NCBI GenBank assembly: GCA_019358985.1
Contig: JAHHIJ010000008.1
Span: 1 to 64,000 of the forward strand
Direction: 5' to 3'
DNA from: Tolypothrix brevis GSE-NOS-MK-07-07A
GTDB taxonomy: Bacteria; Cyanobacteriota; Cyanobacteriia; Cyanobacteriales; Nostocaceae
Length of the DNA stretch: 64,000 nt
The notes beneath the pieces are model-generated. The model worked only from the letters and a program-made list of their open reading frames with translations, made no database searches and was not told the origin of the DNA. Below, one piece after another: positions 625 to 55,488 of this stretch. Position numbers and translations under genes: made by a program. Position 1 is the stretch's first letter; every line of letters begins with the position of its first letter.

Positions 625-779
625 TTAGACATATAATAAAAATTAATGATGCGTTGTCCGAAACCCTTGATTAGACGTAGCGATGCTACGTCTCTACCTA
701 TGACTCTGGAGATGTCTATTAGCCCTTGATTAGACGTAGCGATGCTACGTCTCTACCTATGACTCTGGAGATGTCTATT
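625..779. repeat. MITE-like element with 59-bp tandem duplication (TTAGACAT family)
   Basis: The element begins TTAGACAT and ends GGAGATGTCTATT, like the more complete copy at 36389-36482. Its right part is duplicated: 664-722 and 723-779 are nearly identical 59-bp units. Each contains the palindrome AGACGTAGC-GAT-GCTACGTCT (673-693 and 732-752). It lies just past the 3' end of the minus-strand gene that follows. Confidence 0.8.
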
Positions 780-789
780 TCTTAAAGCC

Positions 790-1053
790 TTATAATTCAG
801 CCCGAATAGTAAAAGCATAATCTCCTCCAGGCTCTAGTTCGTAGTCTCGTTGCTCCAAGAAGCGACCGAGGGGTTCTTTAATTAACGCACGACCTTGAGA
901 AGGCTTAACAGACAGTTCACCCAGGCGAAAATGCCATTGGAACTGCCACTCAAAGTCACCCGCACTGACTTCCCCTTCTAGGAAGCCGTGTTGCCAGGAT
1001 TGACGAGTAACCCTGACATGGGCAATACTTTCTGGCAGACGTTTAGTACTCAC
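790..1053 (-). CDS. Small conserved cyanobacterial protein (DUF3146-like)
   Basis: An 87-residue basic protein with alternating charged and aromatic residues (DFEWQFQWHFRLGELSV) and a conserved-looking tail (GGDYAFTIRAEL). From memory it matches the small cyanobacterial family DUF3146 (function unknown). I cannot confirm the family without a search. Start choice: TTG at 1068 and GTG at 1053 are both in frame. GTG gives the natural-looking N terminus STKRLPES. No signal peptide or membrane segment is seen. Confidence 0.65.
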   Translation of the reverse strand: MSTKRLPESIAHVRVTRQSWQHGFLEGEVSAGDFEWQFQWHFRLGELSVKPSQGRALIKEPLGRFLEQRDYELEPGGDYAFTIRAEL

Positions 1054-1187
1054 TATGCTTGATGTCAAGTTTGAGATAAAGGTTGACCATATAGGCTATT
1101 TCTACCATACATAGCTTAGATCCACAAAAGTAGGGCGTTGCATATTTCTGGGATGATGAATGCAATAGACATCGACCGAATTGAACT

Positions 1188-1259
1188 ATGCGTTGCCCCA
1201 AACCCTTGATTAGACTATTCTGTGCTACGTCTCTACATTGTTTTCTGGAGATGTCTAAT
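1188..1259. repeat. TTAGACAT-family element, left-truncated copy
   Basis: It carries the internal block GCGTTGCCCCAAACCC, an imperfect core hairpin around 1213-1238 (AGACTATTCTGTGCTACGTCT) and the right end GGAGATGTCTAA. The left terminal repeat is missing. Confidence 0.7.
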
Positions 1260-1278
1260 ATAGTTAAAAATTCAACAC

Positions 1279-1345
1279 GTTGTAAAGACGTTTCGGCGAA
1301 ACGTCTCTAGGATTTATCCCACGGTTATGCAATTTTATACCGATC
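1279..1345. repeat. Dispersed repeat with TTTCGGCGAAA hairpin, copy 1
   Basis: The palindrome AGACGTTTCGG-CGAAACGTCT (1286-1306) is followed by TAGGATTTATCCCACGGTTA and an AT-rich tail. A near-identical copy lies at 8280-8345. Both copies lie upstream of an NRPS-type start whose leader is also duplicated. Confidence 0.8.
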
Positions 1346-1375
1346 TTGGTCGGGACTTACACCGACCTGTACTAG

Positions 1376-1703
1376 AACATAAAGATTAAGTAAAGTTGAT
1401 TGACATACTTAAAATAATACTTAGAATATTATTAGGTTAGAGATCCAGTAAATCTACGAGAAATTACTTAACTTATTTTTAATGTACTCTTAACTTTTTC
1501 TTAGTTTAATTAAGTAGTCGGACAAAAATATTTACAGTCAGTGCGAGCGAAGAGAAGCAATCCCAGCCCTTGCGATTACTTCATTCCGCTTCGCTGGATT
1601 CGCAATGACATTGTGTAATTAATTCTGTCTGGCTACTTAAGGTTGATGAAAATTTTGTCCCCTTTAATTTAATGATTGATTTGTATACAAGGAGACAAGT
1701 ATT
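1376..1703 (+). promoter_or_regulatory. Duplicated NRPS leader/promoter region, copy 1
   Basis: AT-rich sequence from about 1376 (AAAGATTAAGTAAAGTTGAT) and the immediate leader (ATACAAGGAGACAAGTATT before ATG 1704) match the leader of the intact NRPS at 8702-8876 in order and wording. A MITE (1510-1640) splits this copy. No gene is seen in 1069-1703. Confidence 0.55.
1510..1640. mobile_element. MITE-like element with TTAAGTAGYCRGACA ends
   Basis: This 131-bp non-coding element has terminal inverted repeats TTAAGTAGTCGGACA and, on the other strand, TTAAGTAGCCAGACA. The interior has the GCGAGCGAAG...CTTCGCTGGATTCGC type of sequence common as dispersed repeats in cyanobacteria. It sits inside the duplicated NRPS leader. 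Confidence 0.7.
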
Positions 1704-1946
1704 ATGAAACAATTAAATACTTGTATTGTGGATCAAATAATCGTGGAAGCTGCTTTGCTAGAGCATCCATTGATTCACGACTGTGTGGTGTTGGTTCGCA
1801 TTTAATTGTTCTCGAAGCGATCAGTTTTGACTTAGTGCAGCGACGCTCCGCAAAAACGCCTAAAGTCGATGCCAGAAGTCGAGCAGGTGGCGGTAATTGT
1901 TGAAGAGTCTAAGGAGAAAGTCCCTTTATTGCATCTATTTAGATAG
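1704..1946 (+). pseudogene. Broken NRPS-associated gene start
   Basis: The reading frame starts ATGAAACAATTAAAT, the same 15 bases and ribosome-binding site as the intact NRPS at 8877, then stops after 33 codons at 1805. The first piece contains VEAALLEHPLIHDCVVLVR and a second piece from 1869 reads MPEVEQVAVIVEESKEK. From memory, both strings resemble an N-terminal segment seen in some cyanobacterial NRPS and acyl-AMP-ligase proteins. A short GCGACGCTCCGC-type repeat lies between them. I read this as the decayed 5' end of a former NRPS gene, not a functional small protein. Confidence 0.6.
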
Positions 1947-2089
1947 TGCTACCTGACCAAAAAGGCAGGCTTGTTCTTGAAAATATACATCTGGGTTAGG
2001 TTAAACCTGTTTGTTCAAAACCAGGACTTACGCAGCAAAAATCCAGTTCAGACACTTCCCCTGTTTTTACGTATAGGAGCGTGATAGTT

Positions 2090-4891
2090 ATGGAAAAATC
2101 GCATGAATCTATCATAGATAAGCAAATCCTGAAACCAGTTGCTTTATCTGTTGCCCAACGCCATTCTATTAACCGACCGAAAGGCTTCATCAAATTTAAA
2201 AAAGAAGATATTGAGCAATCAATTGCAAGTCGTTTTGAACAACAAGTTAACAAGTATCCCAACTTAATTGCTGTCAAAAGCAAGACCGAAACATTTAGCT
2301 ATGACCAACTAAACAAAACTGCCAACCGTCTGGCACGAGCTATTTTATCACAGCGAGGAGAAGGAAAAGAAGCGATCGCCCTGTTGCTCGAAGGTGCAAG
2401 TTTTATTACTTCAATGTTTGGGGTACTCAAAACAGGAAAAATCTATGTCCCGATAGACCCCTCAACTCCCCATACCAGACTTACTTATATCGTTGAAGAT
2501 TCAGAAGCCGTTTTAATTGTCACTAATAATAAAAATCTCGCTTTAGCCCGTGAGTTAGCTCAGAACCAATGCCAAGTGTTAAATCTTGATGACATTGATT
2601 TTAGCCTTTCTACAGATAATCTGAATCTGTCAATATCACCCGATACCCTTGCTTTTATAATTTATACCAGTGGCTCAACAGGAAAGCCAAAGGGAGTTGT
2701 GCAGAATCATCGCAACGTGCTGCATAACTGCATGAATAATACTAACGGTTTGCATATCAGCCCAAATGACCGCTCGACTCTTTTATATTCTTGTGGTTTT
2801 ATGGGGGCAATGAGAGGCATCACGAATGCCTTACTAAATGGTGCTTCCCTCTACCCTTTGAATGTAAAAGAAGAAGGATTAAATAGTTTAGTCAACTGGC
2901 TAATCCAAGAAGAAATTACTATTTACCATTCAGTTGCGACCCTTTTTCGACAGTTTGTTGCTATTCTCACAGAAGAACAGCAGTTTCCCCAACTTCGCGT
3001 ACTCGTATTTGGCGGTGAGCCTGTCTTACGGAGAGATGTGGATCTCTACAAAAAGTATTTTTCCTCAAACTGTATGATGTATGTTGGTCTAGGAGCAACT
3101 GAAACCGGAACTGTGCGGCAGTTCATCGTTAACAAAGATACCCAGATCCAGAGCAGCACTGTACCGATTGGCTATCCAGTCGAGGGTATGGAGATTTTGC
3201 TGTTTGATGAAGCAGGCATTGAAGTTGGCTGCGGTGAGATTGGTGAAATTGCTGTCAAGAGTGAATATGTTGCTTTAGGCTATTGGCAAAAGCCGGAACT
3301 GACACTCGCCGCATTCCAACCAGCGCTACTGGGTGGAAGCCAACGCATCTATCGCACAGGGGATCTAGGACGCATGGAGCCTGATGGTTGCCTGATTCAT
3401 CTGGGAAGAAAAGACTTTCAGGTGAAAATTAGAGGCTTCAGAATCGAAGTCAGCGAAATCGAGATGGCACTTCTTGACACCGACGTTATTAAAGAAGCCG
3501 TGGTTATTGCCCGTGAGGATATACCCGGAGATAAACGTCTGGTCGCTTATGTTGTTGTTCCTAAGGCAAGTCTAGCACCGAGCAACAGCGAACTGCGGCG
3601 CTATTTGCAGGATAAAGTACCCGATTACATGCTGCCTAGTGCCTTTGTATTTTTAGATGCTCTGCCCTTAACACCTAACGGAAAGCTAAATCGCCTTGCA
3701 CTTCCAGCACCTCACACTAGTCAACAAGATATGAAAGCAACGTTTGTTGCCCCTCGCGATAATTTTGAACAAAAGCTTTCGCACATTTGGTCAGAAGTTT
3801 TAGGCATTCAACCGATTGGAGTGAAAGACAACTTCTTTGACCTGGGGGGAAATTCGTTGTTAGCTGTCAGCTTATTCGCGCAAATAGAAAACAAATTTGG
3901 CAAAAAACTTCCCTTAGCCACCCTTTTCCAATCAGGTACAGTGGAAGCTTTGGCAAAAACGATTCGCGAACAACAAGTAGCACTTGGTAATGAAAATTGG
4001 AAATCAGACCTTGCTTTGGCAAATGATTTATCAGCGGTCATAAGACAGAAAAAGTCAGCACATCTTTGGTCATCCCTGGTAAAAATTAAACCTAACGGTT
4101 CCCAGCCACCTTTATTTTTTGTACACCCGCTTGGTGGAGAAATCCTCTGCTACCGTGATTTAGCAAACCATTTGGGGTCAGAGCAACCAGTTTATGGGCT
4201 ACAACCACAAGGACTAGATGGAGAACAAGCACCTTTAACCTCGATTGAAGATATGGCAGCCCATTACATTCAAGAAATTAAGTCTATTCAAGGCAATGGT
4301 CCTTATTTTCTTGGAGGGTACTCCTTTGGTGGTATAGTTGCTTTCGAGATGGCGCAGCAACTTTGCAAGCAAGGTGAGAAAGTCGGTCTTTTAGTTATGT
4401 TTGATACTTCTCGTCCGGGTACTGAAAGGCGATCGCCCTTCTTAAAACGATTTTTAGAGCATATAAATAATTTTGTGCAACAAGGACCTATATACCTTCA
4501 ACAAAAGCTTGTAGGCTGGCGTGAGTGGGGTACATACCAAATCCGAGAGAAATATAAGCGTTTTTTGGAGAAGTCAAATAGGTTACCTGAAGATGACAAG
4601 CACTTAGCAATCATAGATGCTAATGTTTTAGCTCAAAGTCAATATATGTTCCAAGTTTACCCCGGTCAAATGACTCTTTTGCGGACTGATGACAAGAATC
4701 GAGACGATGCTGTGGGTATGCATTACGATCCGCAATTTGGTTGGGGTGAGTTAGTCACTGGAGGAATAGATATTCATTACATTTCTGGTTCTCACCTTTC
4801 CCTACTCGAAGAACCCAATGTACAACTGCTAGCAGAGAAATTGAAGCTTTGCTTAGAGAAAGCTTGTCCATTAAATAATTCAGCTTTATAA
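2090..4891 (+). CDS. NRPS-like protein, adenylation-PCP-thioesterase
   Basis: A 933-residue protein. An adenylation domain (about 40-540) has YTSGSTGKPKG near 191, YRTGDLG near 420, the KIRGFRIE hinge and NGKLNR near 530. A carrier protein has DLGGNSLL near 586 with the phosphopantetheine serine. A type I thioesterase has HPLGGE, GYSFGG near 742 (nucleophile Ser) and a C-terminal GSHLS histidine. There is no condensation domain. It presumably activates one acid, loads it on its own carrier and releases it. The usual A4 FDxS motif reads CGFMGAM, so the Asp that binds an alpha-amino group appears absent and the substrate may not be an alpha-amino acid. AGGAG at 2075 favours ATG 2090 over GTG 2081. 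It resembles the A-PCP-TE part of the gene at 8877. Confidence 0.9.
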   Translation: MEKSHESIIDKQILKPVALSVAQRHSINRPKGFIKFKKEDIEQSIASRFEQQVNKYPNLIAVKSKTETFSYDQLNKTANRLARAILSQRGEGKEAIALLLEGASFITSMFGVLKTGKIYVPIDPSTPHTRLTYIVEDSEAVLIVTNNKNLALARELAQNQCQVLNLDDIDFSLSTDNLNLSISPDTLAFIIYTSGSTGKPKGVVQNHRNVLHNCMNNTNGLHISPNDRSTLLYSCGFMGAMRGITNALLNGASLYPLNVKEEGLNSLVNWLIQEEITIYHSVATLFRQFVAILTEEQQFPQLRVLVFGGEPVLRRDVDLYKKYFSSNCMMYVGLGATETGTVRQFIVNKDTQIQSSTVPIGYPVEGMEILLFDEAGIEVGCGEIGEIAVKSEYVALGYWQKPELTLAAFQPALLGGSQRIYRTGDLGRMEPDGCLIHLGRKDFQVKIRGFRIEVSEIEMALLDTDVIKEAVVIAREDIPGDKRLVAYVVVPKASLAPSNSELRRYLQDKVPDYMLPSAFVFLDALPLTPNGKLNRLALPAPHTSQQDMKATFVAPRDNFEQKLSHIWSEVLGIQPIGVKDNFFDLGGNSLLAVSLFAQIENKFGKKLPLATLFQSGTVEALAKTIREQQVALGNENWKSDLALANDLSAVIRQKKSAHLWSSLVKIKPNGSQPPLFFVHPLGGEILCYRDLANHLGSEQPVYGLQPQGLDGEQAPLTSIEDMAAHYIQEIKSIQGNGPYFLGGYSFGGIVAFEMAQQLCKQGEKVGLLVMFDTSRPGTERRSPFLKRFLEHINNFVQQGPIYLQQKLVGWREWGTYQIREKYKRFLEKSNRLPEDDKHLAIIDANVLAQSQYMFQVYPGQMTLLRTDDKNRDDAVGMHYDPQFGWGELVTGGIDIHYISGSHLSLLEEPNVQLLAEKLKLCLEKACPLNNSAL

Positions 4892-4893
4892 AG

Positions 4894-4919
4894 GGACATT
4901 GCAATATATGTCCTTGTTT
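4894..4919 (+). terminator. Weak hairpin after NRPS-like gene
   Basis: GGACAT (4894-4899) pairs with ATGTCC (4908-4913) directly after the stop codon and is followed by TTGTTTA. It is short and has only a broken T-run, so termination is tentative. Confidence 0.35.
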
Positions 4920-4974
4920 ACATAGGGCTTGCTGAAAAAGTCGTATTTAAGGCAGTTAAACACTTGTAATATTT

Positions 4975-5052
4975 GTAGGTTGGGTTGAGGAACGAAACCC
5001 AACATGAATTCTAAGCTTTTGTTGGGTTTCACTTATTTTCAACCTAACCTAC
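4975..5052. repeat. GTAGGTTGGGTT palindromic repeat, copy 1
   Basis: A 78-bp imperfect palindrome: GTAGGTTGGGTTGAGG at the left, AACCTAACCTAC at the right, with internal GAAACCCAACA/TGTTGGGTTTC arms. A second copy lies at 13082-13156. Each copy is the first large repeat downstream of an NRPS-type gene. No gene is seen between 4892 and 5260. Confidence 0.85.
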
Positions 5053-5260
5053 ATTCAGAAATTTTATTATAAGTAATCACCCGAACTTGATATGACCTAG
5101 CAACAAGCACCCATTTAAGTCAAACTTAACCGAGTGCATATTTTGTTCGGAAAATATTTTTGCAACACAACTTTTTTTAGATACAAAGTTTAACAAGGGC
5201 TGTGTTGGCAAGGTAAAAATAATAAATTTATTACCAGCGATCGCTGTGGAAAAAATCTAA

Positions 5261-6343: not shown

Positions 6344-6346
6344 AAC

Positions 6347-6450
6347 ATCGAGAAAGTGCGGACTAAATATTCTAGGATTCGCGCTAGATTGCAACATAAA
6401 GCCAGCAAAGGCACTCGTAGTAGTCGAAGACGTTCTCGACAACATTGTCT
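6347..6450 (+). pseudogene. TnpB-like transposase fragment
   Basis: The open frame right after the glycosyltransferase stop reads IEKVRTKYSRIRARLQ followed by KGTRSSRRRSRQ. This resembles the arginine-rich middle of IS1341/IS607-type TnpB proteins. It is cut at the right by the MITE starting at 6452. It is a different lineage from the intact TnpB at 6678. The identification rests on about 33 residues. Confidence 0.45.
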
Positions 6451-6451
6451 T

Positions 6452-6562
6452 ATACAGCAGATTGCGTTGTTATTAAATACACGTAGAGACTATTCTGTGC
6501 TACGTCTGTGAGCGGGTTTTGGGTTTTACGCCTGTACCTCATTTACCTGAAATCTGCTGTAT
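6452..6562. mobile_element. MITE with perfect 12-bp ends ATACAGCAGATT
   Basis: A 111-bp element bounded by ATACAGCAGATT (6452-6463) and its exact reverse complement (6551-6562). Inside are a degenerate core hairpin (AGACTATTCTGTGCTACGTCT) and GGGTTTTGGGTTTTA. Partial or decayed copies lie at 14336-14391, 15811-15886, 18525-18612 and 47236-47343. Confidence 0.9.
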
Positions 6563-11800: not shown

Positions 11801-12998
11801 TCCAGCACCTGAGCAAGCCTTGCAAGAGTCGGAAGTAACTTTTGTTGCTCCCCGCGATGATTTAGAACAAAAGCTTTCGCAAATCTGGGAAGAAGTTTTA
11901 GGTATCCAACCCATTGGCATCATGGATAACTTCTTTGATCTGGGGGGGCATTCCTTGCTAGCTGTGCGCTTATTCTCAAACATTGAGCAGACATTCGGCA
12001 AAAAACTTCCCCTATCTTCCCTGTTTCCATCAGCGACTGTAGAAGCTCTTGCTGAAACTATTTCTCAAACAGAATTAGCTGTTGATAATCAAGTTTCGTC
12101 AACATTGGCTGAGAATAAATCAAAAACTTCTTGGTCATCCCTGGTAGAAATTCAGCCCACAGGTTCCAAACCACCTTTATTTTGTATCCATCCCCTTGGT
12201 GGAGAAACTTTATGTTACCGCGATTTGGCAAATCATCTAGGATCGGAGCAACCAGTTTATGGGTTACAACCAATTGGGTTAGATGGAAAACAGCCTCACC
12301 ATACTCGCATTGAAGACATGGCATCGCACTATATTCAAGAAATTCAGAAGATTCAGCCCAATGGTCCTTATTTTCTATTAGGGTGGTCTTTTGGAGGTTT
12401 TGTTGTCTACGAAATGGCTCAACAACTTTACTCTCAAGGTGAGAAAGTGGATCTTGTCGGGATGATTGACAGCACTCGTCCAGGTTATTCTAAGCGATCG
12501 CCATTTTTAATCCGAGTTTTTCTGCACTTAAATAATATTTTCCGACGAGGACCGGCTTATATCTGGGAAAAGGCTGTGGGTTGGAGCAACCAGGGCAAGT
12601 ATGAGATTCAACAGAGATACAAGCGTTACGTAAATGCGACACAACATTTATTAGATATTACGCCGCATTTAGCAGATGATGACGAACACTTAGAAGTTAT
12701 AGGCGCTAATGTGCAAGCTCTAGACAAATATATTTTTCAAGTTTACCCCGGTCGAATGACCCTTTTTCGGACTGAAGATGAAAATCGCTACGAAGCGATC
12801 GGCGAAACATACGATCCTCAATTCGGTTGGGGTGATATCATCACTGGAGGAATAGATATCAATTACATTCCCGGTTCTCACTTATCTGTGATGGAAGAAC
12901 CCTATGTACAGGTAATAGCAGAACAATTAAAGGTTTACCTAGAAAAGGCTCATGGAATCAACTTAAAGGATTACAGCAGATTTCAGGTAAATGTATAA
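8877..12998 (+). CDS. Single-module NRPS: condensation-adenylation-PCP-thioesterase
   Basis: A 1373-residue protein. The C domain (1-440) starts PLSFAQQRLWFFEQLDP; its catalytic HHxxxDG motif reads HHIASDE (near 143), so the catalytic His and Asp are kept but the Gly is Glu. The A domain (470-980) has YTSGSTGTPKG near 619, YKTGDLA near 858 and KIRGFRIE. The A4 region reads IAFSSSVRQL (near 662) instead of FDxS, so the alpha-amino-binding Asp is replaced by Ser. The PCP has DLGGHSLL near 1023. The thioesterase has GWSFGG near 1169 and a terminal GSHLS near 1332. It would condense an upstream acyl or peptidyl donor with an unusual acid and release it. The A-PCP-TE part is a diverged paralogue of the gene at 2090. 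No phosphopantetheinyl transferase or exporter is nearby. Confidence 0.93.
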   Translation: MKQLNNCKESNPLSFAQQRLWFFEQLDPNSPTYHISKGLHLQGNLNVEVLQQTLDTIVAHNEALRTNFTAQDGIPVQLINEPKLVELVVIDLRDCPEAERTTQVERLLEDEVQRPFNLASDLMLRACLLQLSPQEHILLLVMHHIASDEWSISILFEQLTTLYQAFLEGKPNPLAKMPIQYADFAQWQRQRLSSEVIENQINYWKQHLAGATPVLELPTDKPRPPVQTYRGAKQSFVLPQSLCAALHRVSQQEGVTLFMTLLAAFQTLLYRYTAQEDILVGSPIPGRNLPETKQVIGLFVNTLVLRTDMSGNPSFRELLQRVRSLAMSAYAQQDLPFEKLVEELQLERSLSYHPLFQVMFVLMDSARQTLYLPGLTSTTFDLDNVTSRFDLTLSIKETEHELQGWWEYNTDLFDAATITRMIGHFQTLLDSIVANPQQQISELPLLTPAERHQLLFEWNDTQADYPQNKCIHELLEQQVERNPDTVAVVFENQQVSYQELNSRANQLAHYLKTLGVGSDVLVGICVERSIEMVVGVLGILKAGGAYVPLDPTYPKERSRFMLQNSQPKVFLTQDFLKTELPEIKTTVVCLDTDWHLIAQQSEENLNQTATTANLAYVIYTSGSTGTPKGVKVTHGNLCHYAQAMGLALGITAEDVYLHTASIAFSSSVRQLMVPLASGATVTLATSEQRKDPRALFAGIKQHDVTVIDIVPSYWRNCVHTLISLEPGTSQALLDNKLRLIVSASEPLLSDIPTQWTFGFKHSARLINMFGQTETCGIVATYPIPAQQDERVKIVPLGRPIPNTQIYLLDSHMQPVPIGVAGELHIGGVGLAQGYLNRPELTDEKFIPNPFIQEEGARIYKTGDLARFLPNGNIEFLGRGDYQVKIRGFRIELGEIEAVLSQHPSIVQTVVIAYEHIPGDKRLVAYVVPNQQTTATISELRRFLKEKLPEYMIPSVFVFLEALPLTPSGKVNRSALPAPEQALQESEVTFVAPRDDLEQKLSQIWEEVLGIQPIGIMDNFFDLGGHSLLAVRLFSNIEQTFGKKLPLSSLFPSATVEALAETISQTELAVDNQVSSTLAENKSKTSWSSLVEIQPTGSKPPLFCIHPLGGETLCYRDLANHLGSEQPVYGLQPIGLDGKQPHHTRIEDMASHYIQEIQKIQPNGPYFLLGWSFGGFVVYEMAQQLYSQGEKVDLVGMIDSTRPGYSKRSPFLIRVFLHLNNIFRRGPAYIWEKAVGWSNQGKYEIQQRYKRYVNATQHLLDITPHLADDDEHLEVIGANVQALDKYIFQVYPGRMTLFRTEDENRYEAIGETYDPQFGWGDIITGGIDINYIPGSHLSVMEEPYVQVIAEQLKVYLEKAHGINLKDYSRFQVNV

Positions 12999-13081
12999 AA
13001 CCCCTCTCCTTGCAGAGACATAGCACAGAATAGTCTCTATATGTCAATACAGTTCAGTTAGCGTCAAAAGCTTTAAACTGC

Positions 13082-14335: not shown

Positions 14336-14391
14336 ATACAGCAGATTGCGCTTTCATCGAATACAAGAGACGTAGCACTTGGTAGTCTCTA
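14336..14391. repeat. ATACAGCAGATT-family relic
   Basis: Left end ATACAGCAGATTGCG (14336-14350), then a core hairpin AGAGACGTAGCACTTGG plus TAGTCTCTACG. The right terminal repeat is missing. It lies between nucA and nuiA. Confidence 0.65.
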
Positions 14392-14435
14392 CGTTTTTTC
14401 TACCAGATGTCTAATGGTATGAAGTTTTAGTGTGT

Positions 14436-15802: not shown

Positions 15803-15810
15803 GCACGTAA

Positions 15811-15886
15811 AGACGTAGCAGTGCTACGTCTCTACAAGGAGAGGGGTTTTATATATGTACTTCCTAAGGAGTGAAATCTGCTGTAG
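15811..15886. repeat. ATACAGCAGATT-family element, left-truncated
   Basis: Core hairpin AGACGTAGCAG/TGCTACGTCT (15811-15831), then GGGTTTTATATATGTACTTC and the right end GAAATCTGCTGTA. The left end is replaced by the HIP1 array. Confidence 0.75.
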
Positions 15887-15930: not shown

Positions 15931-15959
15931 GTAGAGACGTTCCGCCGGAATGTCTTTAC
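15931..15959. repeat. Solo core hairpin (GACGTTCCG type)
   Basis: GTAGAGACGTTCCG/CCGGAATGTCTTTAC: an isolated copy of the hairpin core with two mismatched pairs in the stem and no recognisable flanking ends. Confidence 0.6.
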
Positions 15960-18524: not shown

Positions 18525-18612
18525 TACAGCAGATTGCGTTTTTATTGAATATACGTAGAGACGTTCCGGCGGAACGTCTCTACAGGGTTTTGGATTTTAT
18601 GCATGTACCTCT
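18525..18612. repeat. ATACAGCAGATT-family element with GACGTTCCG core
   Basis: Left part CTACAGCAGATTGCG, perfect core hairpin GTAGAGACGTTCCG/CGGAACGTCTCTAC (18555-18583), then GGGTTTTGGATTTTATGCAT. The right terminal repeat has decayed. The rest of 18255-18681 shows no gene. Confidence 0.7.
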
Positions 18613-21914: not shown

Positions 21915-22002
21915 TTAGACATCTCCAGAAAAGACGTAGCAGTGCTACGTCTCTACAAGGGTTTGGGACAACGCGTAGTTCATTTTCACTCCTATGTCTA
22001 TT
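21915..22002. mobile_element. TTAGACATCTCC-family MITE
   Basis: Left end TTAGACATCTCCAGAA, core hairpin AGACGTAGCAG/TGCTACGTCT (21932-21952), right end CTATGTCTATTAG. It sits between the SNF2 gene and its SWIM partner. Confidence 0.75.
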
Positions 22003-24260: not shown

Positions 24261-25649
24261 CTAGTCAAGTGGTTTCATTGACATTACTGGTTCGGTATCA
24301 CGGTTGATTCCTTTCTCAAATCCACCTGATGCTGCACGAGCGCGACCGGCGTGCCACAAGTGACCAATTAGGAAGAAGAAGCCCACGAAAAAGTGGAAAC
24401 ATGCCAACCAAGCGCGAGGAGATACGTAGTTGAAAGAGTTTATCTCCGTAGCCACACCACCCACAGAGTTCAAAGAACCCAGAGGAGCGTGAGTCATGTA
24501 TTCAGCGGCACGACGAGCTTGCCAAGGCTGAATATCGTTCTTGATTTTTTCCAAGTCAAGACCGTTGGGACCGCGTAGAGGCTCCAACCAAGGACCGCGG
24601 AAATCCCAGAAGCGCATGGTTTCTCCACCGAAGATGATTTCACCAGTAGGAGAGCGCATCAGGTATTTACCTAGACCGGTAGGACCTTGTGCAGAACCGA
24701 CGTTAGCACCCAAGCGTTGGTCACGAATCAAGAAGGTTAAAGCTTGAGCTTGAGAAGCTTCAGGACCAGTAGGACCGTAGAATTCGCTGGGGTAAGCGGT
24801 GTTATTGTACCAAACCATAAGGGAGGCGACAAAAGCCATCAAGGACACAGCGCCAATACTGTAGGAGAGGTAAGCTTCACCAGACCAAATCAAGGCGCGA
24901 CGTGCCCAAGCAAAGGGTTTGGTGAGAATGTGGAAAATACCGCCTGCTATACAGACAAAGGCAACCCAAATGTGACCGCCAATGATATCTTCCATGTTAT
25001 TGACGCTGACAATCCAGCCTTCGCCGCCGAAGGGAGATTTAATCAAATAACCGAAGATAGTGGCTGGGTTCAGTGTGGGGTTGGTAATGACGCGAACATC
25101 ACCACCGCCTGGCGCCCAGGTGTCGTATACACCGCCAAAGAACGTTGCCTTCAACACCAACAGAAGGGCACCGCATCCTAAGATGATTAGGTGGAATCCG
25201 ATGATGTTGGTCATCTTGTTCTTATCTTTCCAGTCGTAACCAAAGAACGAAGAATACTCTTCTAAGGTTTCTGGACCGCGAACGGCATGATAAATACCGC
25301 CAAAACCTAGTACAGCCGAGGAAATCAGATGCAGTACACCGACTACGAAGTAGGGGAAGGTATCGATGACTTCACCACCCGTACCAACACCCCAGCCCAG
25401 GGTGGCTATGTGAGGTAACAAAATCAAGCCTTGTTCGTACATCGGCTTTTCGGGAATGAAGTGAGCGACTTCAAACAAAGTCATCGCTCCAGCCCAGAAT
25501 ACAATCAAGCCAGCATGGGCTACGTGAGCGCCCAGCAGTTTACCGGATAAGTTGATTAGACGAGCATTACCAGACCACCAAGCGAATCCAGTGGATTCTT
25601 GGTCACGTCCGCTGCCCATTACCGAAGGTTTATTAGAGAGCGTTACCAC
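24261..25649 (-). CDS. psbC: Photosystem II CP43 chlorophyll protein
   Basis: A 462-residue inner antenna protein with six membrane helices and chlorophyll-binding His residues. The large lumenal loop contains [19 protein letters not shown], whose Glu and Arg contact the Mn4CaO5 cluster. The annotated start is the GTG at 25649 (VTLSNKPSV...), the conserved psbC start, with GAGG in the psbD tail as ribosome-binding site. A longer in-frame extension exists but lies inside psbD. Overlaps psbD by 17 bp, the conserved cyanobacterial arrangement. Confidence 0.97.
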
Positions 25650-36388: not shown

Positions 36389-36482
36389 TTAGACATCTCC
36401 AGAAATTAATTATGCGTTGCCCCAAACCCTTGTAGAGACGTAGCACAGAATAGTCTTTACCTCTTTTCCGGAGATGTCTATT
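36389..36482. mobile_element. TTAGACATCTCC-family MITE, most complete copy
   Basis: 94 bp. Ends TTAGACATCTCC and GGAGATGTCTATT are inverted repeats. The interior is ATTATGCGTTGCCCCAAACC plus an imperfect core hairpin (36432-36460). It lies about 50 bp upstream of the peroxiredoxin start and probably separates it from its original promoter. Confidence 0.85.
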
Positions 36483-37679: not shown

Positions 37680-37809
37680 GAAAATTCTGGCATTGCTGAA
37701 TTGATGTATGAATCCGGATGTAAAGACGTTCCGCCGGAACGTCTCTACAAGGATTTTAGTATTATATAAAATTATTTTCATACCTCCATTCAGCAATGCC
37801 AAAATTCTT
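37680..37809. mobile_element. MITE with TGGCATTGCTGAAT ends and hairpin core
   Basis: About 30-bp imperfect terminal inverted repeats (TGGCATTGCTGAAT at 37689-37702 and its complement at 37788-37801, extending to AGAAAATTC/AAAATTCTTT). The centre is the hairpin GACGTTCCG/CGGAACGTC. Flanked by GGGGACAC tandem units (37654-37677) and a C-rich tract (37811-37855). Confidence 0.85.
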
Positions 37810-42615: not shown

Positions 42616-42699
42616 ACTAAGCTGCCTGCTACATAAACTCTGGACATCATTTGTAAAATTCCTATTAATATCATATCAGGTTTATTACTTATAAATAAT

Positions 42700-42728
42700 G
42701 TAGAGACGTTCCGCCGGAACGTCTCTAC
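42700..42728. repeat. Perfect hairpin core, GACGTTCCG type
   Basis: GTAGAGACGTTCCG, one base, CGGAACGTCTCTAC: a perfect 14-bp stem. A second, different core (AGACGTTATATGTAACGTCT) lies about 60 bp on, near 42792. No gene is seen in 42616-43063. Confidence 0.85.
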
Positions 42729-42904
42729 GACGGTTGCGACGTTTTTATTACTGTTAATTAAACGGACATTATATAACCAGACGTTATATGTAACGTCTCT
42801 ACATTGGTCAAATAATCCTTGAGGGAAATCACCCCAAAGTGTTTGATCCAGATGCGCGACTAAATTTTATACCAACGCCAAAATATTTACAGAGCAATTC
42901 TCAC

Positions 42905-47235: not shown

Positions 47236-47343
47236 GTAGCAGCCTATCGCTTTAATCGAATACACGTAGAGACGTAGCAGTGCTACGTCTCTACAAAGTT
47301 TTGGGTTTTATATATGTACTTCGTTTACCTGAAATCTGCTATA
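47236..47343. mobile_element. ATACAGCAGATT-family MITE, diverged ends
   Basis: Left end decayed (GTAGCAGCCTATCGC), perfect core hairpin GTAGAGACGTAGC/GCTACGTCTCTAC (47266-47294), then GGGTTTTATATATGTACTTC and GAAATCTGCTATAT. Lies between the two PstS-like paralogues and ends at the stop codon of the second. Confidence 0.8.
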
Positions 47344-49699: not shown

Positions 49700-51208
49700 A
49701 TGTTTAAACGTCCCTTGAATATTACAAAACCAATATTATTTTGGCGTCGCTTGCTCGCTGTCATGTTCAGCACTAGTCTGCTGATTCCCTTGGATATTGT
49801 CAGTCAGCGAGCAGAAGCGCAAGTAAACGACTATTGCCAGTTGTCAGCAACGGCAACGCAAGAAAAAGAAAATTTACGCGCTTTGGCAGAAAAAGGTAGT
49901 CAAGATACCCAGAACAACTATCGACAGTTGTTGCAACAACATGCAGAAGCTTTGCGAGAATGCCGCAGTCGCACTTGGCCCCAAGTTCAAGCAATTTGGT
50001 TGCGCTTGTATCCTTGTGACATTCAACCGGGAGCCATCGATCAAATTATGGATCGAATTGTTAGCCGGGGCTATAACCAAGTTTATTTGGAAACGTTTTA
50101 CGATGGACAAGTGCTGTTGCCAGCAGGATCTAACCCGACAGCTTGGCCCTCTGTGGTTCGCACACCAGGGTCAGAAAAAGTTGATTTGTTAGCCCAAGCA
50201 ATTCAAAAAGGACGAGAACGCGGTTTAAAGGTTTACGCCTGGATGTTTACAACCAATTTTGGTTATACTTATGCCCAGCGTCAAGATAGGCAAGGTGCGA
50301 TCGCTCGCAATGGCAAAGGTCAAACTAGCTTATATGTTGTAGACAACGGCAGTCAAGTCTTTGTTGATCCCTACAACCTGCAAGCCAAACGCGACTACTA
50401 TCAACTGCAACAAGAAATAATCCGTCGTCGCCCAGATGGAGTACTGTTTGACTATGTACGCTATCCGCGACAAGCTGGAACTGATTCTATCGCCACTAAA
50501 GTTACAGATTTATGGCTATTTACCGAAGCCACTCAACAAGCTTTATTTCAACGCGCACAGAATTCTAAAGGGTTGGACTTGATTCGGCGCTTTTTGAGTA
50601 AGGGATACGTCACAGGCGGAGATATTGCTGATGTCGATAAAGTGTATCCTACTGAAGGTGAACCACTTTGGCAAGGTCGCATACCAGGGGCAGTAACAGC
50701 AGAAAAATCGCTGATGAGTGCAAACGAAAGGCAACCACTGATGCAAATGGAGTTATGGCAGCTTGCAGTTGCCCACGCCATGCAAGGTATCCTGGATTTT
50801 GTCGCTTTAGCTAGTTACCCCGCTATTCAACTAGGTATTCCCGCAGGGGTGGTGTTTTTCCCTGAAGGAAATCAATCATTAGGACAAGGTTATGATTCTC
50901 GCTTGCAACCTTGGGATAGATTTCCCAGTAACCTAGAATGGCATCCGATGTTGTATGCTAATTGCGCCGATAGTGCTTGTATTGTTGCTCAAGCACAGCG
51001 GGTTTTAAGTATGGCAAAACCAGGGACGCAGGTGATTCCCGCTTTAGCCGGCAAGTGGGGTGAATCAATTAGTAATCGTCCACCATTAGAAGCGCAAATG
51101 CAAGCATTACGCCAATTAGCCCCGCAACTTAAAGGTGTAAGCCATTTTGCCTATTCTTGGCAATATCCTGAACATGATGGCGATCGCAAATTCTGTCGTG
51201 TTCGGTGA
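49700..51208 (+). CDS. Secreted GH10-like/GHL10 glycoside hydrolase-type protein
   Basis: 502 residues. Signal peptide RRLLAVMFSTSLLIPLDIVS ending around residue 40. A TIM-barrel type domain: VQAIWLRLYPCDIQPGAIDQ, NQVYLETFYDGQVLLP, RERGLKVYAWMFTTNFGYTY, RRPDGVLFDYVRYPRQAG and LDFVALASYPAIQLGIP. This matches the glycosyl hydrolase-like 10 (DUF187) class, several of which act on cell-wall or capsule glycans. Substrate unknown. 26 bp separate it from the next gene; probably one operon. Confidence 0.8.
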   Translation: MFKRPLNITKPILFWRRLLAVMFSTSLLIPLDIVSQRAEAQVNDYCQLSATATQEKENLRALAEKGSQDTQNNYRQLLQQHAEALRECRSRTWPQVQAIWLRLYPCDIQPGAIDQIMDRIVSRGYNQVYLETFYDGQVLLPAGSNPTAWPSVVRTPGSEKVDLLAQAIQKGRERGLKVYAWMFTTNFGYTYAQRQDRQGAIARNGKGQTSLYVVDNGSQVFVDPYNLQAKRDYYQLQQEIIRRRPDGVLFDYVRYPRQAGTDSIATKVTDLWLFTEATQQALFQRAQNSKGLDLIRRFLSKGYVTGGDIADVDKVYPTEGEPLWQGRIPGAVTAEKSLMSANERQPLMQMELWQLAVAHAMQGILDFVALASYPAIQLGIPAGVVFFPEGNQSLGQGYDSRLQPWDRFPSNLEWHPMLYANCADSACIVAQAQRVLSMAKPGTQVIPALAGKWGESISNRPPLEAQMQALRQLAPQLKGVSHFAYSWQYPEHDGDRKFCRVR

Positions 51209-51234
51209 GTAATTACCAAAAACAATTCTAAGTT

Positions 51235-52524
51235 ATGAGTATGCTATTTAATCAAAAAGTCCGCCTGACAATCGGTTTTGCCACTTTATTAATTACCGGC
51301 TTCGCTAGTAGCTATCTATATACTCAGTCAAAAACTAAACAGTTAGCTCAACAAAATCCGGCTACAGAAAACCTAGCCTTTACTCAGCAGCAGATTTCCC
51401 TAGCATCAAATATTCAAAATACTTTTAATGAGAATATAGGCAAGGAAAATACTTTTTCATCAAAGCAAGAATTAGCACAAGCATCAAAACCATATTCTGT
51501 CATTGATGAAGCACAAAAACCTAAATTTAAGGTTAATAGCAGCCAAGTTTTTAATTCCGCCAAGCTACCAACTACTAAAGTTAATTTCAATGAAGCTGAC
51601 TTATTAGCAACTCTCTCCAATACCAGAAAGTATTTTCAAGACTATGGTTCGTTAGATCCAGATGTTCAACGTACAGGATTGCTTGGCGCTCAAGGAGTTA
51701 CTATAAAAGATATCCTCAAGACTTTGGATTTTATGATTGCTGTCTTACAAGAGGATATTGGCAATGGTCGAACTACACGTTTACAAGATCCTAATTTTAT
51801 CAACTCTAATTTTCGCGTTATCAAATGGTCTGCTTATAACCCACAAAAATCTCAGCAAGAACGACTACGAATTACAAAATATGCTGTATTTATTCATCCA
51901 GGGTCACGGAAGAAAACCTCTACATTTAATATACCAATCTACAGTTTAAAAGATGATTTAGCGGTTAGTAAGTTCTATACCAGATATACAAAGCAGGATG
52001 TTTTATCAGGTATTTACGAACCAGGTGGTAGAGAGTATGGAAAAGTTGAACCTTTGGCTTATCTAACCCGAAAAGGGTTAGAAGAAGCTTTAATGCAAGG
52101 AACAATTCTGGTTAATTTTCCTGATGGTTCTAAGACATACTTTAATGTCGATAGAAACAACGAAATCCCTTATGTGCGAGGATTAGCCGCAACTGCCCAA
52201 AAGCGTTATTGGTATTTTCGGGAGGTTGATGCTATCAAAGGTTATGGATATAAGATTGATGCAAAAATTTCTATCAAACCAGGGGTGACTTTTGCTGGTG
52301 ATGTGCTGAATATTGGTTTAGGGAAAATTATTGTACTTGAGTATAATAAGGGCGGGCGAAAAAATCTGCAAATGGGAATTATAGCAGATACAGGTGGGGC
52401 GTTTTTACCGAATCTGCATCAACTTGATTTTTTAGCGGGTATTTTTAAGAATAATAAAGATTTTGGGCAGCATGGTCATAAATTGCCTGATTATGCTAGT
52501 GCGTATATTTTAGTGAAGAAGTGA
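51235..52524 (+). CDS. MltA-like / 3D-domain exported protein
   Basis: 429 residues with an N-terminal signal-anchor (RLTIGFATLLITGFASSYLY). The C-terminal half contains YGKVEPLAYLTRKGLEEALM, DGSKTYFNVDRNNEIPY, PGVTFAGDVLNIGLGKIIV and IIADTGGAFLPNLHQLDFLA. The ADTGGA...D pattern is that of MltA-type lytic transglycosylases and 3D domains, where the Asp residues are catalytic. Residues 50-140 are low-complexity. Peptidoglycan as substrate is an inference. Probably co-transcribed with the GH10-like gene. Confidence 0.6.
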   Translation: MSMLFNQKVRLTIGFATLLITGFASSYLYTQSKTKQLAQQNPATENLAFTQQQISLASNIQNTFNENIGKENTFSSKQELAQASKPYSVIDEAQKPKFKVNSSQVFNSAKLPTTKVNFNEADLLATLSNTRKYFQDYGSLDPDVQRTGLLGAQGVTIKDILKTLDFMIAVLQEDIGNGRTTRLQDPNFINSNFRVIKWSAYNPQKSQQERLRITKYAVFIHPGSRKKTSTFNIPIYSLKDDLAVSKFYTRYTKQDVLSGIYEPGGREYGKVEPLAYLTRKGLEEALMQGTILVNFPDGSKTYFNVDRNNEIPYVRGLAATAQKRYWYFREVDAIKGYGYKIDAKISIKPGVTFAGDVLNIGLGKIIVLEYNKGGRKNLQMGIIADTGGAFLPNLHQLDFLAGIFKNNKDFGQHGHKLPDYASAYILVKK

Positions 52525-52538
52525 GGCTGGATATAAAA

Positions 52539-52641
52539 CAATACAGTTCAGTTAAGAATTGGTGGTAAAAAATGGTATGTATGTAGAGACGTAGCATTGC
52601 TACGTCTCTATGAGGATTTAGGGCTTAACTGAACGGTATTG
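52539..52641. mobile_element. MITE with CAATACAGTTCAGTTAAG ends
   Basis: 103 bp. 18-bp terminal inverted repeats with one mismatch. Core hairpin GTAGAGACGTAGC/GCTACGTCTCTA (52583-52610). Solo ends at 13044 and 41987. Confidence 0.88.
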
Positions 52642-52650
52642 GCATATAAA

Positions 52651-52704
52651 AGCCCTCAGGCTGGAAGCCTGGGGCTATAGAAACAAAGCCCACCTGCGTG
52701 GGCT
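52651..52704. repeat. AGCCCAC...GTGGGCT repeat, left copy
   Basis: GGCTGGAAGCCTGGGGCTAT then AAACAAAGCCCACCTGCG and TGGGCT. Inverted relative to 53603-53656. The two copies flank the two hypothetical genes between them. Confidence 0.85.
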
Positions 52705-52749
52705 AAATGCATCTTGTTGTAAAAACGGTGTAAAATGTTTGTTATAAGA

Positions 52750-53184
52750 TCAAAATGTCCATTCGTGGTCTGGATCGTCTAGGGCAGCGCGGACAGAAGT
52801 TAGGTTTGCAAGCTCTTTAAATGGGCTTGATTTGGCTATTTCTGTGATTGAATTTAATGTTAAGGCTAGTTGCTCGTTATTATTGGATGCGTAGACGCGA
52901 AGCGGCTTGTCGTCAGACATCGCACTATCAACTACATTAAATAAAGCACGAAAATTTTCTGCACGTTCATCAAAAGAGCGATCGAGATACGCTATAAGTA
53001 AGTCTCGCTGGGCATTTATTTTAGCGATCGCTTCTTTTTCCCAAGCATCAATTTCACATCGCTTTGTCTTTTCTTGTTCGGCAATTATTTTGTATTCAAA
53101 ATAAGCCGAAACCATCTGCTGTAGGCATTCAGCAGGATTGATAAATTCTTTGACTACTACTGTGGCAACTTTCTTTACAGACAT
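52750..53184 (-). CDS. Hypothetical protein, 144 residues, second gene of a pair
   Basis: Helical, charged protein: MVSAYFEYKIIAEQEKTKR, EKEAIAKINAQRDLLIAYLD, DERAENFRALFNVVDSAMSD, NEQLALTLNSITEIAKSSPF. Coiled-coil-like, no enzyme motif. The segment SDDKPLRVYA is encoded by a GCGTAGACGC...GCTTGTCGTCAGACATCGC repeat, probably an insertion. Separated by 2 bp from the upstream gene. Unrecognised family. Confidence 0.6.
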   Translation of the reverse strand: MSVKKVATVVVKEFINPAECLQQMVSAYFEYKIIAEQEKTKRCEIDAWEKEAIAKINAQRDLLIAYLDRSFDERAENFRALFNVVDSAMSDDKPLRVYASNNNEQLALTLNSITEIAKSSPFKELANLTSVRAALDDPDHEWTF

Positions 53185-53186
53185 TT

Positions 53187-53546
53187 CTAATTGCCTCCCA
53201 AAGTACGATATTTGGCTTGGATAGTCGCAGTAATAGGATTCAGTTGCCCTTCATTATCTAAAACAGGAGTTTTCATGATTTCTGCGAGTGCCTTCATTAG
53301 AAGTCCCACTTGTTGGAATTTACTAGCATCCCTGTTTTTATCAAATGTTGGCAAAGATTCAAGTTCATCCAAACCGATAACAGCAAGGTTGTTAAGAGAT
53401 TCAACTAAATCCATCAACTCGATAATCCGTCGTCTTACTTGTTGCATAAAGTCTTTTGCAGCTTCAATTTTAGCGATCGCAATATTGACTTCAACTTCAT
53501 ACTTTCGCGCTTTCGTCAAGGCTTTTTCACCTTCACCAGCAAACAC
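53187..53546 (-). CDS. Hypothetical protein, 119 residues, first gene of a pair
   Basis: GTG 53546. Helical: EKALTKARKYEVEVNIAIAK, AAKDFMQQVRRRIIELMDLV, FQQVGLLMKALAEIMKTPVL. The start FAGEGEKALTKAR looks as if it begins within a domain, and an in-frame stop lies just upstream, so the 5' end may have been cut by the repeat at 53603. Partner gene directly follows. Confidence 0.6.
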   Translation of the reverse strand: MFAGEGEKALTKARKYEVEVNIAIAKIEAAKDFMQQVRRRIIELMDLVESLNNLAVIGLDELESLPTFDKNRDASKFQQVGLLMKALAEIMKTPVLDNEGQLNPITATIQAKYRTLGGN

Positions 53547-53602
53547 AACCTATTCAGCAGCAAAAATGTAAAACTTCCATGAAGAAAATTACTAAACTCT
53601 TT

Positions 53603-53656
53603 AGCCCACGAAGGTGGGCTTCGTTTGTATAGCCGCGACTTCCAGTCGTCCGGGCA
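53603..53656. repeat. AGCCCAC...GTGGGCT repeat, right copy
   Basis: AGCCCACGAAGGTGGGCTTC then GTTTGTATAGCCGCGACTTC and CAGTCG. Reverse complement of the left copy at 52651-52704 with few differences. Confidence 0.85.
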
Positions 53657-53661
53657 AAATA

Positions 53662-54465
53662 TCAACCCAAAGTTTCCGGATCGATACCTAACGCGGTCAA
53701 TTTTTCTGCTAACATTTGTGCCCGTTGTTCTGCTGACACACGTCGCTGTTCCTCATAATTTGCGCGTTCTTCAGCTTCTGTAATGCGTTCTTCTGGCGTC
53801 AGCAACCTTTGCCCTTGTTCGTCATACCAATACAACCACTCCCGCGCTATACCTTGATAAATTCCGCGATCGCGTCCAATTCCTAAATTAATCTCCGGTA
53901 GCCAAACCGGATTTCCTGGCTGTAACTCATATTCGCCATTCACTAAGCGATACACTTCCAAAGGTGGGTTTTTGCGACGACAAGGATTATATACAACGTA
54001 GTACAAAATCCCTAATTCTTTCCCATAGAATTCTTTCTTAGTGCTGTATTCTCCCCGATGGGTTTGAGAAACAACCTCTAATACCAAAATTGGCAGCGTA
54101 TTTTCTTCCCACAGTACATAACTTAGGCGTAAATCCTCACCAATAAAGCGTTTAACTCCTAAGCTGAGAAATCCATCAGGGACGATCGCGGGTTTATTTG
54201 GGTCATAATAAACACCCATATCAACGCCAAAGAACCAATCCCAACGCTCTGACCACAGCAAAGCCAGCATCGCTTTTAGCAAGCCAGGAATCAAATCTTG
54301 TAGTTCATTATCCACAGGTGTATCGTCTGAGTCGGGTAGTTCTTCGGAAGATGGCAAACAGTGCAATGGGTTGTAGTCTAACATGAGCGGTTGTGCCAAA
54401 GCTGATTCTAAATAGATTGTAGAAAATTGATTGACCGAGTAGAAGCTTTGTGTTTTGCCATACAT
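53662..54465 (-). CDS. Uma2-family protein with coiled-coil tail
   Basis: 267 residues. Uma2 core: GVDMGVYYDPNKPAIVPDGF, NTLPILVLEVVSQTHRGEYS, LGILYYVVYNPCRRKNPPLE, the PD-(D/E)XK-type Asp and Glu. Tail EERITEAEERANYEEQRRVS ending LGIDPETLG is the usual coiled coil. A later ATG at 54384 would remove a weakly conserved first 27 residues. Faces the 54542 gene divergently. Confidence 0.85.
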   Translation of the reverse strand: MYGKTQSFYSVNQFSTIYLESALAQPLMLDYNPLHCLPSSEELPDSDDTPVDNELQDLIPGLLKAMLALLWSERWDWFFGVDMGVYYDPNKPAIVPDGFLSLGVKRFIGEDLRLSYVLWEENTLPILVLEVVSQTHRGEYSTKKEFYGKELGILYYVVYNPCRRKNPPLEVYRLVNGEYELQPGNPVWLPEINLGIGRDRGIYQGIAREWLYWYDEQGQRLLTPEERITEAEERANYEEQRRVSAEQRAQMLAEKLTALGIDPETLG

Positions 54466-54541
54466 ACCAAAGAAATGGTGAGATTTTAGATAGAATCAAG
54501 TTCAATAGCATAAAAATTAAATTTACTAAAATGTTTGTCAA

Positions 54542-55150
54542 ATGCCATACAGTCAATTCAGTATAGACACTGTTGAGACAACCTTGGGAATTACCATTGT
54601 GGAAACTGTGGGAATTTTTGCGGACACACCCCCAGTAGAATACGGTGATTTTTTGGCACAAACACTTAAAAAGTATATACCATTAGCATTATCTATTGGA
54701 ACTGAAAAAGCTCGTTCGGAACTAATTTTAACACCAATTCTTGTAGAACTAAAAGATATATTACAAAATCAAATTAGTTTGTTTTCCGGTCGAGAATTTA
54801 ACGTTAGTCCAGAAAAAGGTTTAACTGGTTTTTGTGACTTTCTTATTAGTAAGTCTCCAGAACAAATAATTATCAAAGCACCTGTTATCGCTTTGGTAGA
54901 AGCTAAAAATGATAATATTCAATCTGGTTTGGGACAATGCATAGCAGAAATGGTAGCCGCGCAATTATTTAATCAGCAAAAAGAAAATGAAATTAAAACA
55001 ATTTACGGTAGTGTCACCACAGGTACTAACTGGAAATTTATGCGTTTGTCTGGACAAATAATAGAAATTGATTTAAATGAATATTTTATAAATGATGTTA
55101 GAAAAATTTTAGGAATTTTAAGAAGTTTTATTGATAATGGTGATAATTAA
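54542..55150 (+). CDS. PD-(D/E)XK-like hypothetical protein
   Basis: 202 residues. GFCDFLISKSPEQ then APVIALVEAKNDN near 118: an Asp followed by ExK, the core of the PD-(D/E)XK nuclease fold. QSGLGQCIAEMVAAQLFNQQ and IYGSVTTGTNWKFMRLSGQ follow and resemble type I restriction R-subunit N-terminal regions. A nuclease or an inactive relative. The gene stands alone. Confidence 0.6.
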   Translation: MPYSQFSIDTVETTLGITIVETVGIFADTPPVEYGDFLAQTLKKYIPLALSIGTEKARSELILTPILVELKDILQNQISLFSGREFNVSPEKGLTGFCDFLISKSPEQIIIKAPVIALVEAKNDNIQSGLGQCIAEMVAAQLFNQQKENEIKTIYGSVTTGTNWKFMRLSGQIIEIDLNEYFINDVRKILGILRSFIDNGDN

Positions 55151-55488
55151 TATGGTATTTTTATCTGAATGCGTTATCCAGAACCCTTGAGACGTAGCAA
55201 TACGCTTCGGTTAAGGCAAAAGATGCAAGAGAATCGCCTTGCAATACGCTTGGTGTTAAGGCAAGAGACGCGATAAATCGCCGTCTCTACAAAGGAATTA
55301 TTATTGTAAAGACGACGATTTATCGGGTCTTTGTGATCTATAATTTTCATCAAAAAATCTTATCCGAACCATATTGAATCGCCTTGTAGAGACGGCGATT
55401 TATCGCGTCTGATCTATAATTTTGATCAAAAAACCTTATCCGAACCGTATTGAGAGACGTAGCACTGCTACGTCTCTACATTCTTGAC
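55151..55488. repeat. Gene-free region of degenerate hairpin repeats
   Basis: Repeats of CGCCTTGTAGAGACGGCGAT and TTATCGCGTCT, direct copies of TTATCCGAACC (near 55362 and 55436) and a hairpin core AGAGACGTAGC/GCTACGTCTCT (55453-55477). No gene. Confidence 0.75.

Follow-up and report, generated by a model that had tools for sequence, protein, structure and literature searches.

A short palindrome, hereafter the core, occupies the centre of several families of miniature inverted-repeat transposable elements (MITEs) in the genome of the cyanobacterium Tolypothrix brevis GSE-NOS-MK-07-07A, and our comparisons strongly support its passage from one outer family to another. The initial annotation of the region had suggested a core that moves or is converted separately from the element around it, and this is upheld by the cross-tabulation of core types and families, by core-precise swaps, by a chimeric core shared among families and by half-core differences at orthologous insertions. 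The window analysed is the whole stretch of 64,000 nucleotides at positions 1 to 64,000 of one contig (C52) of the 6.52-Mb genome. Cores and MITEs were collected from 1.32 Mb of the same genome (C-numbered contigs), to which the counts below refer unless another scope is given, and orthologous sites were compared in four genomes of the same genus (G001 to G004), of which G004 is apparently the strain Plectonema radiosum NIES-515 (100% over 3593 nt).

A dispersed palindromic core

The core is a palindrome of 28-30 nt, composed of GTAGAGACG, a variable inner stem of 9-13 nt and CGTCTCTAC, with arms of 8-9 bp. In the window, GTAGAGAC occurs 25 times against 0.82 expected, an approximately 30-fold excess, and at least 25 copies were reached in 0 of 100 shuffles. 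Exact palindromes of the form GTAGAGACN{0,30}GTCTCTAC number 366 genome-wide, with 0 for the reversed control pattern. The hairpin had been annotated at 18 or more sites and is more widespread than that: 19 cores lie at 669-55479 of the window (up to 2 mismatches to three arm variants), and an additional one at 6483, with a degenerate right arm, brings the total to 20. The 320 cores gathered from the 1.32 Mb fall mostly into three types named after the inner stem, GTTCC (139), GTAGC (111) and GCGA (28), the rest being GTAGC/TATTC chimeras (11), GTGAC/GTTCC (7) and others (24). The arms vary as well, for instance GATTAGAC, GTAAAGAC and GTCTAATC. Core palindromes account for 119 of the 189 perfect inverted repeats with arms of at least 11 and spacers of up to 6, and the core set is therefore not an artefact of the choice of arms.

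Among 59 genomes of the order (the present one counted), 44 contain exact-arm palindromes, the inner stems being lineage-specific among the genomes listed in this order-wide comparison, and the four same-genus genomes contain 85 to 637 of them. Viral contigs yielded 0 exact GTAGC-type cores. Besides MITEs, the core is found alone and in tandem arrays. Arrays with one core per unit and units of approximately 41-106 nt were seen at loci L017 (12389-12582), L020 (10829-11281) and L325 (5370-5439); at the locus that L325 matches, the core in the array units differs between P. radiosum and this strain, which amounts to a concerted change.

One core at the centre of MITE families with different ends

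Cores were present in 109 of the 110 two-ended elements of five families (F1, 55/56; F2, 17/17; F3, 17/17; F5, 14/14; F6, 6/6); the lone F7 element scored was without a core. F4 was scored in a first pass over 524 kb only, giving 8 overlapping rows, one of them coreless. The families differ in the sequences that they duplicate or target. F1 is flanked by a 3-bp duplication in 43 of 55 elements (ATT in 22, AAT in 18), F2 and F6 by TA (15/17 and 6/6) and F5 by an 8-bp duplication (12/14), and F3 has an identical single base on each side in 14 of 17 cases with no longer repeat, an unusual one-base duplication. All five have terminal inverted repeats, lack a transposase gene and, with a median length of 90-113 bp, stay below about 600 bp, as MITEs do. 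They insert as whole elements: relatives have clean empty sites for F1, and the present strain has one where P. radiosum carries an F2 copy (L352). A search for autonomous parent insertion sequences (IS) with MITE ends, covering approximately 20% of the genome and the relatives' loci, gave 6 candidates, none a transposase by eye, and an F3 element had no match among plasmids. We take these families to be unrelated MITEs with one common centre.

The outer ends named in the initial annotation are real, and several outer families indeed surround one core in the window, although the core at 42700, which had been described as standing alone, lies inside an F3 element (42668-42774), of an outer family that had gone unnamed. 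Two further elements are of interest for their contents. An F3 element at L336 (7050-7169) carries another palindrome (CCCTCCCCGC...GCGGGGAGGG) in the usual core position, and two inverted F2 elements at C42:84354-86298 flank a 435-aa open reading frame (ORF), DNA cytosine methyltransferase-like by eye, a possible MITE-bounded cargo.

Exchange of cores between families

Collection over the 1.32 Mb, in line with the genome-wide check that had been proposed, cross-classifies core types with outer families, and the types are not tied to one family. Among two-ended elements, F5 has 6 GTAGC, 5 GTTCC, 2 chimeric and 1 GCGA core, F3 has 13 GTTCC and 4 GTAGC, and F2 has 13 GTAGC, 2 GTTCC and 2 chimeric. 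The ATACAGCAGATT family had already been noted to hold different cores in the window, and does so at 6483 (TATTCTG/TAGC chimera), 18555 (GTTCC) and 47266 (GTAGC). F1, F2 and F5 include copies in which the flank is conserved up to the core and the core itself is different, with core-precise swaps in F2 at C42:84382 and C42:116449 and in F1 at C60:36562; in F3, approximately 12 nt of flank moves together with the GTAGC core.

The most informative core is the chimera GTAGCACAGAATA, the CAGAATA half of which is novel, so that a single origin is the simple reading. Its 72 distinct copies comprise 12 in the 1.32 Mb and 60 in loci retrieved by the chimera sequence itself, and the family proportions are therefore not unbiased. 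Two ends were recognised in F1 (14), F2 (7), F5 (2) and F3 (1), one end in 27 of the 72 copies (F1 13, F2 10, F4 2, F3 1, F5 1), and no F1-F5 end in 21, some of which have F6 or F7 ends by eye; one chimera-bearing F6 element was confirmed among the two-ended elements. The chimeric core is thus present in all five MITE families, and in both orientations in F1 and F2. A search of the genome collection for the exact 21-nt chimera pattern, which may exclude the present genome, gave 58 stretches, 52 from P. radiosum NIES-515 and 6 from one metagenome-assembled genome, and none from elsewhere.

Change in place at orthologous insertions

Across 8 orthologous core pairs at 6 loci within the genus, 37 of 228 core positions differ, compared with 73 of 960 in the flanks (Fisher p 2e-4); with three realigned pairs from C52:84810 added, the figures for the 11 pairs are 55/314 and 142/1317, which makes the excess of core change modest. 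It is the kind of change that stands out at these cores. Three F2 insertions orthologous between this strain and P. radiosum have different core halves in the two. For instance, the left inner half of the F2 element at C60:13412 is GCAGCAC here and TATTCTG in P. radiosum, within a continuous 689-nt alignment of 92% identity in which the outer element is nearly the same. At C60:58059 the switch lies inside the core, followed rightward by identity past the element end except for one arm base, and the F2 copy near C42:197.5 kb is a mosaic with respect to P. radiosum. An F1 locus at C42:79877 was considered as a further swap and not counted, being ambiguous, since its outer parts also differ from P. 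radiosum.

Other orthologous cores bear the signatures of template switching. The inner stem at C42:57364 is in G003 the exact reverse complement, a spacer inversion, and two differences at C15:27462 are explained by a single half-recopying, in which the right half was recopied and the centre flipped, that is, arm homogenisation. The core at C42:82199 shows two compensatory pair changes (GCGACCGGTCGC/GCGAAATTTCGC), P. radiosum having an array there.

A proposed hotspot of conversion and template switching within MITEs

The best explanation is probably that the core is a hotspot of palindrome-provoked conversion and template switching that travels with MITEs. Each family would move through its own ends and target duplication, presumably with different transposases, and the core would ride along as central cargo. 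Once established at hundreds of sites, the palindrome would become a local recombination and template-switch hotspot, where strand folding or fork stalling may let synthesis or repair switch template. A switch to the other arm would result in arm homogenisation, compensatory changes and inversion of the centre. A switch to the same palindrome in another copy, through the common 8-9 bp arms and nearby flank, would replace the core or half of it and leave the insertion and its ends in place. The route would be template switching or break repair.

Several points weigh against this explanation. Arms of 8-9 bp are short for RecA-type recombination, and no nuclease or transposase has been identified; flanks are common within a family, so that longer exchange tracts can stay hidden. 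Cores change only modestly faster than their flanks, and neither pairs nor sites are independent. Outer-element parts also differ at two of the three F2 loci, which leaves some room for a second independent insertion at the same TA. Finally, a TATTCTG homopalindrome was found in 0 of 5 genomes, the chimera having been left uncorrected; arm correction is therefore not fast with an unpaired inner stem, and not universal.

Cores outside MITEs

Another possibility, tenable but considerably less probable, is that the core moves autonomously as a very small element, like the small dispersed repeats and REPs discussed below, and inserts in MITEs and other places, perhaps by way of an RNA or single-strand intermediate. 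Of the 320 cores, 56 lie in near-unique surroundings, their 50-nt flanks having no more than one other similar copy per side. Two naked cores have near-clean absences, the C42:57364 core in G001 and, in this strain, a P. radiosum core that lies with a partial second copy within heptamer repeats (L316:5283). In addition, T is the base directly outside in 54% of 90 outer positions at 46 cores without a recognised outer end. However, the same 46 cores have no flanking duplication of 3-9 bp, other naked cores aligned to relatives show no clean empty site, and the single coreless case among the 110 two-ended MITEs, together with the lone F7 element, means that there are almost no empty MITE targets into which a core could have inserted. 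Moreover, counts of Y1 transposases and cores correlate weakly across 59 genomes, this one included (Spearman 0.30, p 0.02). With two near-clean absences and none at the others, movement of the bare core stays a rival to the hotspot explanation.

Some naked cores, many of the GCGA type, lie within long ORFs (C60:44237, C43:58179, C43:49630 and C15:55269), where the palindrome may be translated into amino acids, an arrangement reminiscent of Rickettsia palindromic elements.

Pairing, genomic location and selection on the hairpin

The initial annotation held that pairing of the stem is kept, under selection for the fold. Pairing is indeed high: Watson-Crick pairs make up 76% in a set of 63 distinct inner stems and 78% in the length classes that can be shuffled, for which 500 re-pairings averaged 57% and reached at most 65%. 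It is not kept throughout: of the 20 cores in the window, at least five (1208, 6483, 13012, 14364 and 36432) have an unpaired inner stem. The chimera GTAGCACAGAATA is of this kind, folding through its 8-bp outer arms only (-4.9 kcal/mol, compared with -12.9 for a paired type), and nevertheless reached 72 copies, suggesting that the full fold is not required for the core to spread. Covariation can also arise from template switching alone, whose arm homogenisation and spacer inversion predict such pairing with no selection involved.

Location is the other argument for a reading in which the hairpin acts in RNA or DNA, as a terminator-like signal, an mRNA stabiliser or a protein-binding site, and is kept by purifying selection, with exchange as an incidental process. 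With ORFs called by a simple script, 25 of the 320 cores lie within ORFs, against a coding fraction of 0.78. The 286 intergenic cores are 48% co-directional, 39% convergent and 13% divergent, whereas random positions are 21% convergent and 30% divergent; cores thus favour convergent and avoid divergent regions, as passages of PMC3733652 report for repetitive extragenic palindromes (REPs). This fits a REP-like tolerance or 3'-end effects and does not decide function, and the avoidance of genes and promoters is equally expected from the purging of harmful insertions. Given also that the cores have no Rfam family match, we regard such selection as improbable, and the part of the annotation that invoked it as unsupported.

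Relationship to known systems

Precedents for parts of what is observed are REPs, template switching and small dispersed repeats (SDRs) inside minitransposons. The Nostoc repeats SDR1-8, reportedly described by Elhai in 2008, are said to be very short hairpins of 21-27 nt that show compensatory changes and frequently lie in minitransposons and heptamer repeats, and to have been argued to be mobile. The core, compared by description, shares with them a hairpin with compensatory changes embedded in minitransposons, said to be the defining feature, and is longer (28-30 nt); half-core replacement at orthologous sites is not known to be part of that account. Published signatures of template switching at inverted repeats include spacer inversion and arm homogenisation (passages of PMC8604942 and PMC8794818); the core shows both at orthologous loci and in addition is exchanged between dispersed copies in different elements. 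The type II MITEs of Anabaena sp. 90, of 77-541 bp, with terminal and internal inverted repeats and ends unlike those of the IS of that genome (PMC3542288), are alike in build, and the available passages on them do not describe a core common to families with different ends. In open-licence PubMed Central literature (titles, abstract starts and passages), we found no precedent for a core common to MITE families or for half-core replacement at orthologous sites, and a literature search with core 9-mers gave no cyanobacterial title among the matches listed.

The GTAG/CGTC-tagged REP superfamilies (Di Nocera 2013, PMC3733652) are described in passages of that work as 20-40 bp palindromes with alternative complementary stem residues, occurring in filamentous cyanobacteria, with many A. 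variabilis GTAG-15 dimers lying within longer palindromes. The core resembles GTAG REPs in palindrome size class, in alternative complementary stem residues and in the bias towards co-directional and convergent regions, the comparison with GTAG-12, -15 and -16 being at the level of these descriptions. It is nevertheless very unlikely that a REP-associated tyrosine transposase (RAYT) moves the core as a REP or REPIN, although the core begins with GTAG. Its GTAG pairs with CTAC in a stem of 12-13 bp and is unpaired in REPs, and it forms the centre of several MITE families. The initial annotation had suggested looking for such a transposase. The genome has 5-6 Y1 matches and one gene that is RAYT-like by eye (C39:16955, a 190-aa frame), bracketed by a different inverted pair, GTAGGATGCGTTAGCG.../...CATCCTAC (L033 1366-2041); the 3.4-kb locus contains one arm match with one mismatch and no core. 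The association is therefore rejected for this genome, its sole RAYT-like gene having a palindrome of its own, and the proposed mover is unsupported here. Exact copies of the RAYT-flanking GTAGGATGCGTTA are absent from the 1.32 Mb, and the gene is perhaps a RAYT without a repeat family.

Descent of all outer families from one element, with the core inherited, has practically nothing to recommend it beyond the AAGG(G/A)TTT beside the core in F1, F2 and F5, and is contradicted by the cross-classification of core types and families, by unrelated ends and differing target duplications (3 bp, TA or 8 bp), by the chimera crossing families in both orientations and by core halves that differ at orthologous insertions.

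Cores in the window

The elements are listed in Table 1. The F1 MITE at 1163-1260 (1167..1256 in Table 1) has three paralogues of 99-100% identity, indicating recent copies of a chimera-bearing element. In the nested structure around the 13012 core, F2 ends lie at 12974 and 13216 and F4 ends at 13046 and 13181.

Table 1. Core-bearing features of the window, with their state in relatives
Position	Strand	Feature	Relatives
669..697	+	Core GATTAGAC-GTAGCGATGCTAC-GTCTCTAC in truncated F1 element, right end 717	Absent there in G001 and G002
728..756	+	Tandem partial duplicate, repeating the 669..697 core and the F1 right half (right end 776)	
1167..1256	-	F1-type MITE, chimeric inner-unpaired core 1208-1236 (TATTCTG half and GTGCTAC half)	
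1282..1310	+	Core GTAAAGAC-GTTTCGGCGAAAC-GTCTCTAG, not in recognised outer families	
6455..6559	+	F2 MITE (CAGCAGATT...AATCTGCTG), TA each side, chimeric core 6483-6511	
13012..13040	+	Degenerate chimeric core GCAGAGAC-ATAGCACAGAATA-GTCTCTAT, nested F2/F4 structure	
14364..14392	+	Core CAAGAGAC-GTAGCACTTGGTA-GTCTCTAC; left end F2-type (14339), right end F1-type (14412), a hybrid outer element	
15807..15835	+	GTAGC-type core adjoining F2 right end (15883)	
15931..15959	-	GTTCC-type core, without recognised outer ends	
18527..18583	+	F2 MITE left half, GTTCC-type core 18555-18583, right end not recognised	
21917..21999	+	F1 MITE, GTAGC-type core 21928-21956, ATT each side	Element absent in G001 and G003
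36391..36479	-	F1 MITE, chimeric core 36432-36460, ATT each side	Clean empty site in G001, G003
37689..37800	+	F5 MITE (GGCATTGCTGAAT...ATTCAGCAATGCC), GTTCC-type core 37720-37748	
42668..42774	+	F3 MITE (ATATCATRTC...GACATKATAT), GTTCC-type core 42700-42728	
47237..47341	+	F2 MITE, GTAGC-type core 47266-47294	Sequence absent there in G001, G002, G003
52540..52640	+	F4 element (AATACAGTTCAG...CTGAACGGTATT), GTAGC-type core 52583-52611	
55199..55479	+	F4-type composite, GCGA-type cores 55262, 55306 and 55386 and GTAGC-type core 55451-55479	

In keeping with its cyanobacterial origin, the window also contains 70 HIP1 octamers and, at 25046-25232, the antisense RNA IsrR (Rfam RF01419, 164.5 bits), which overlaps a 471-aa ORF on the opposite strand, presumably isiA.

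Implications

Covariation in a repeated hairpin is usually taken as structural selection; here, changes of the inversion, half-recopying and exchange types are found at orthologous loci, and an inner-unpaired core spreads alongside the paired ones. A bolder reading, which we consider doubtful, makes the core parasitic on mini-transposons. As a cassette of approximately 29 bp, it would cause DNA to break or stall in its middle, and other cores would serve as templates for the repair. If so, the core would convert the cores of unrelated MITEs and spread simultaneously through several transposition systems without a transposase of its own; such a selfish unit, homing-like in behaviour, would stand at the lower size limit of mobile DNA. 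A single module is common to MITEs with different target rules, and the spread of very small palindromic repeats without a cognate transposase becomes testable.

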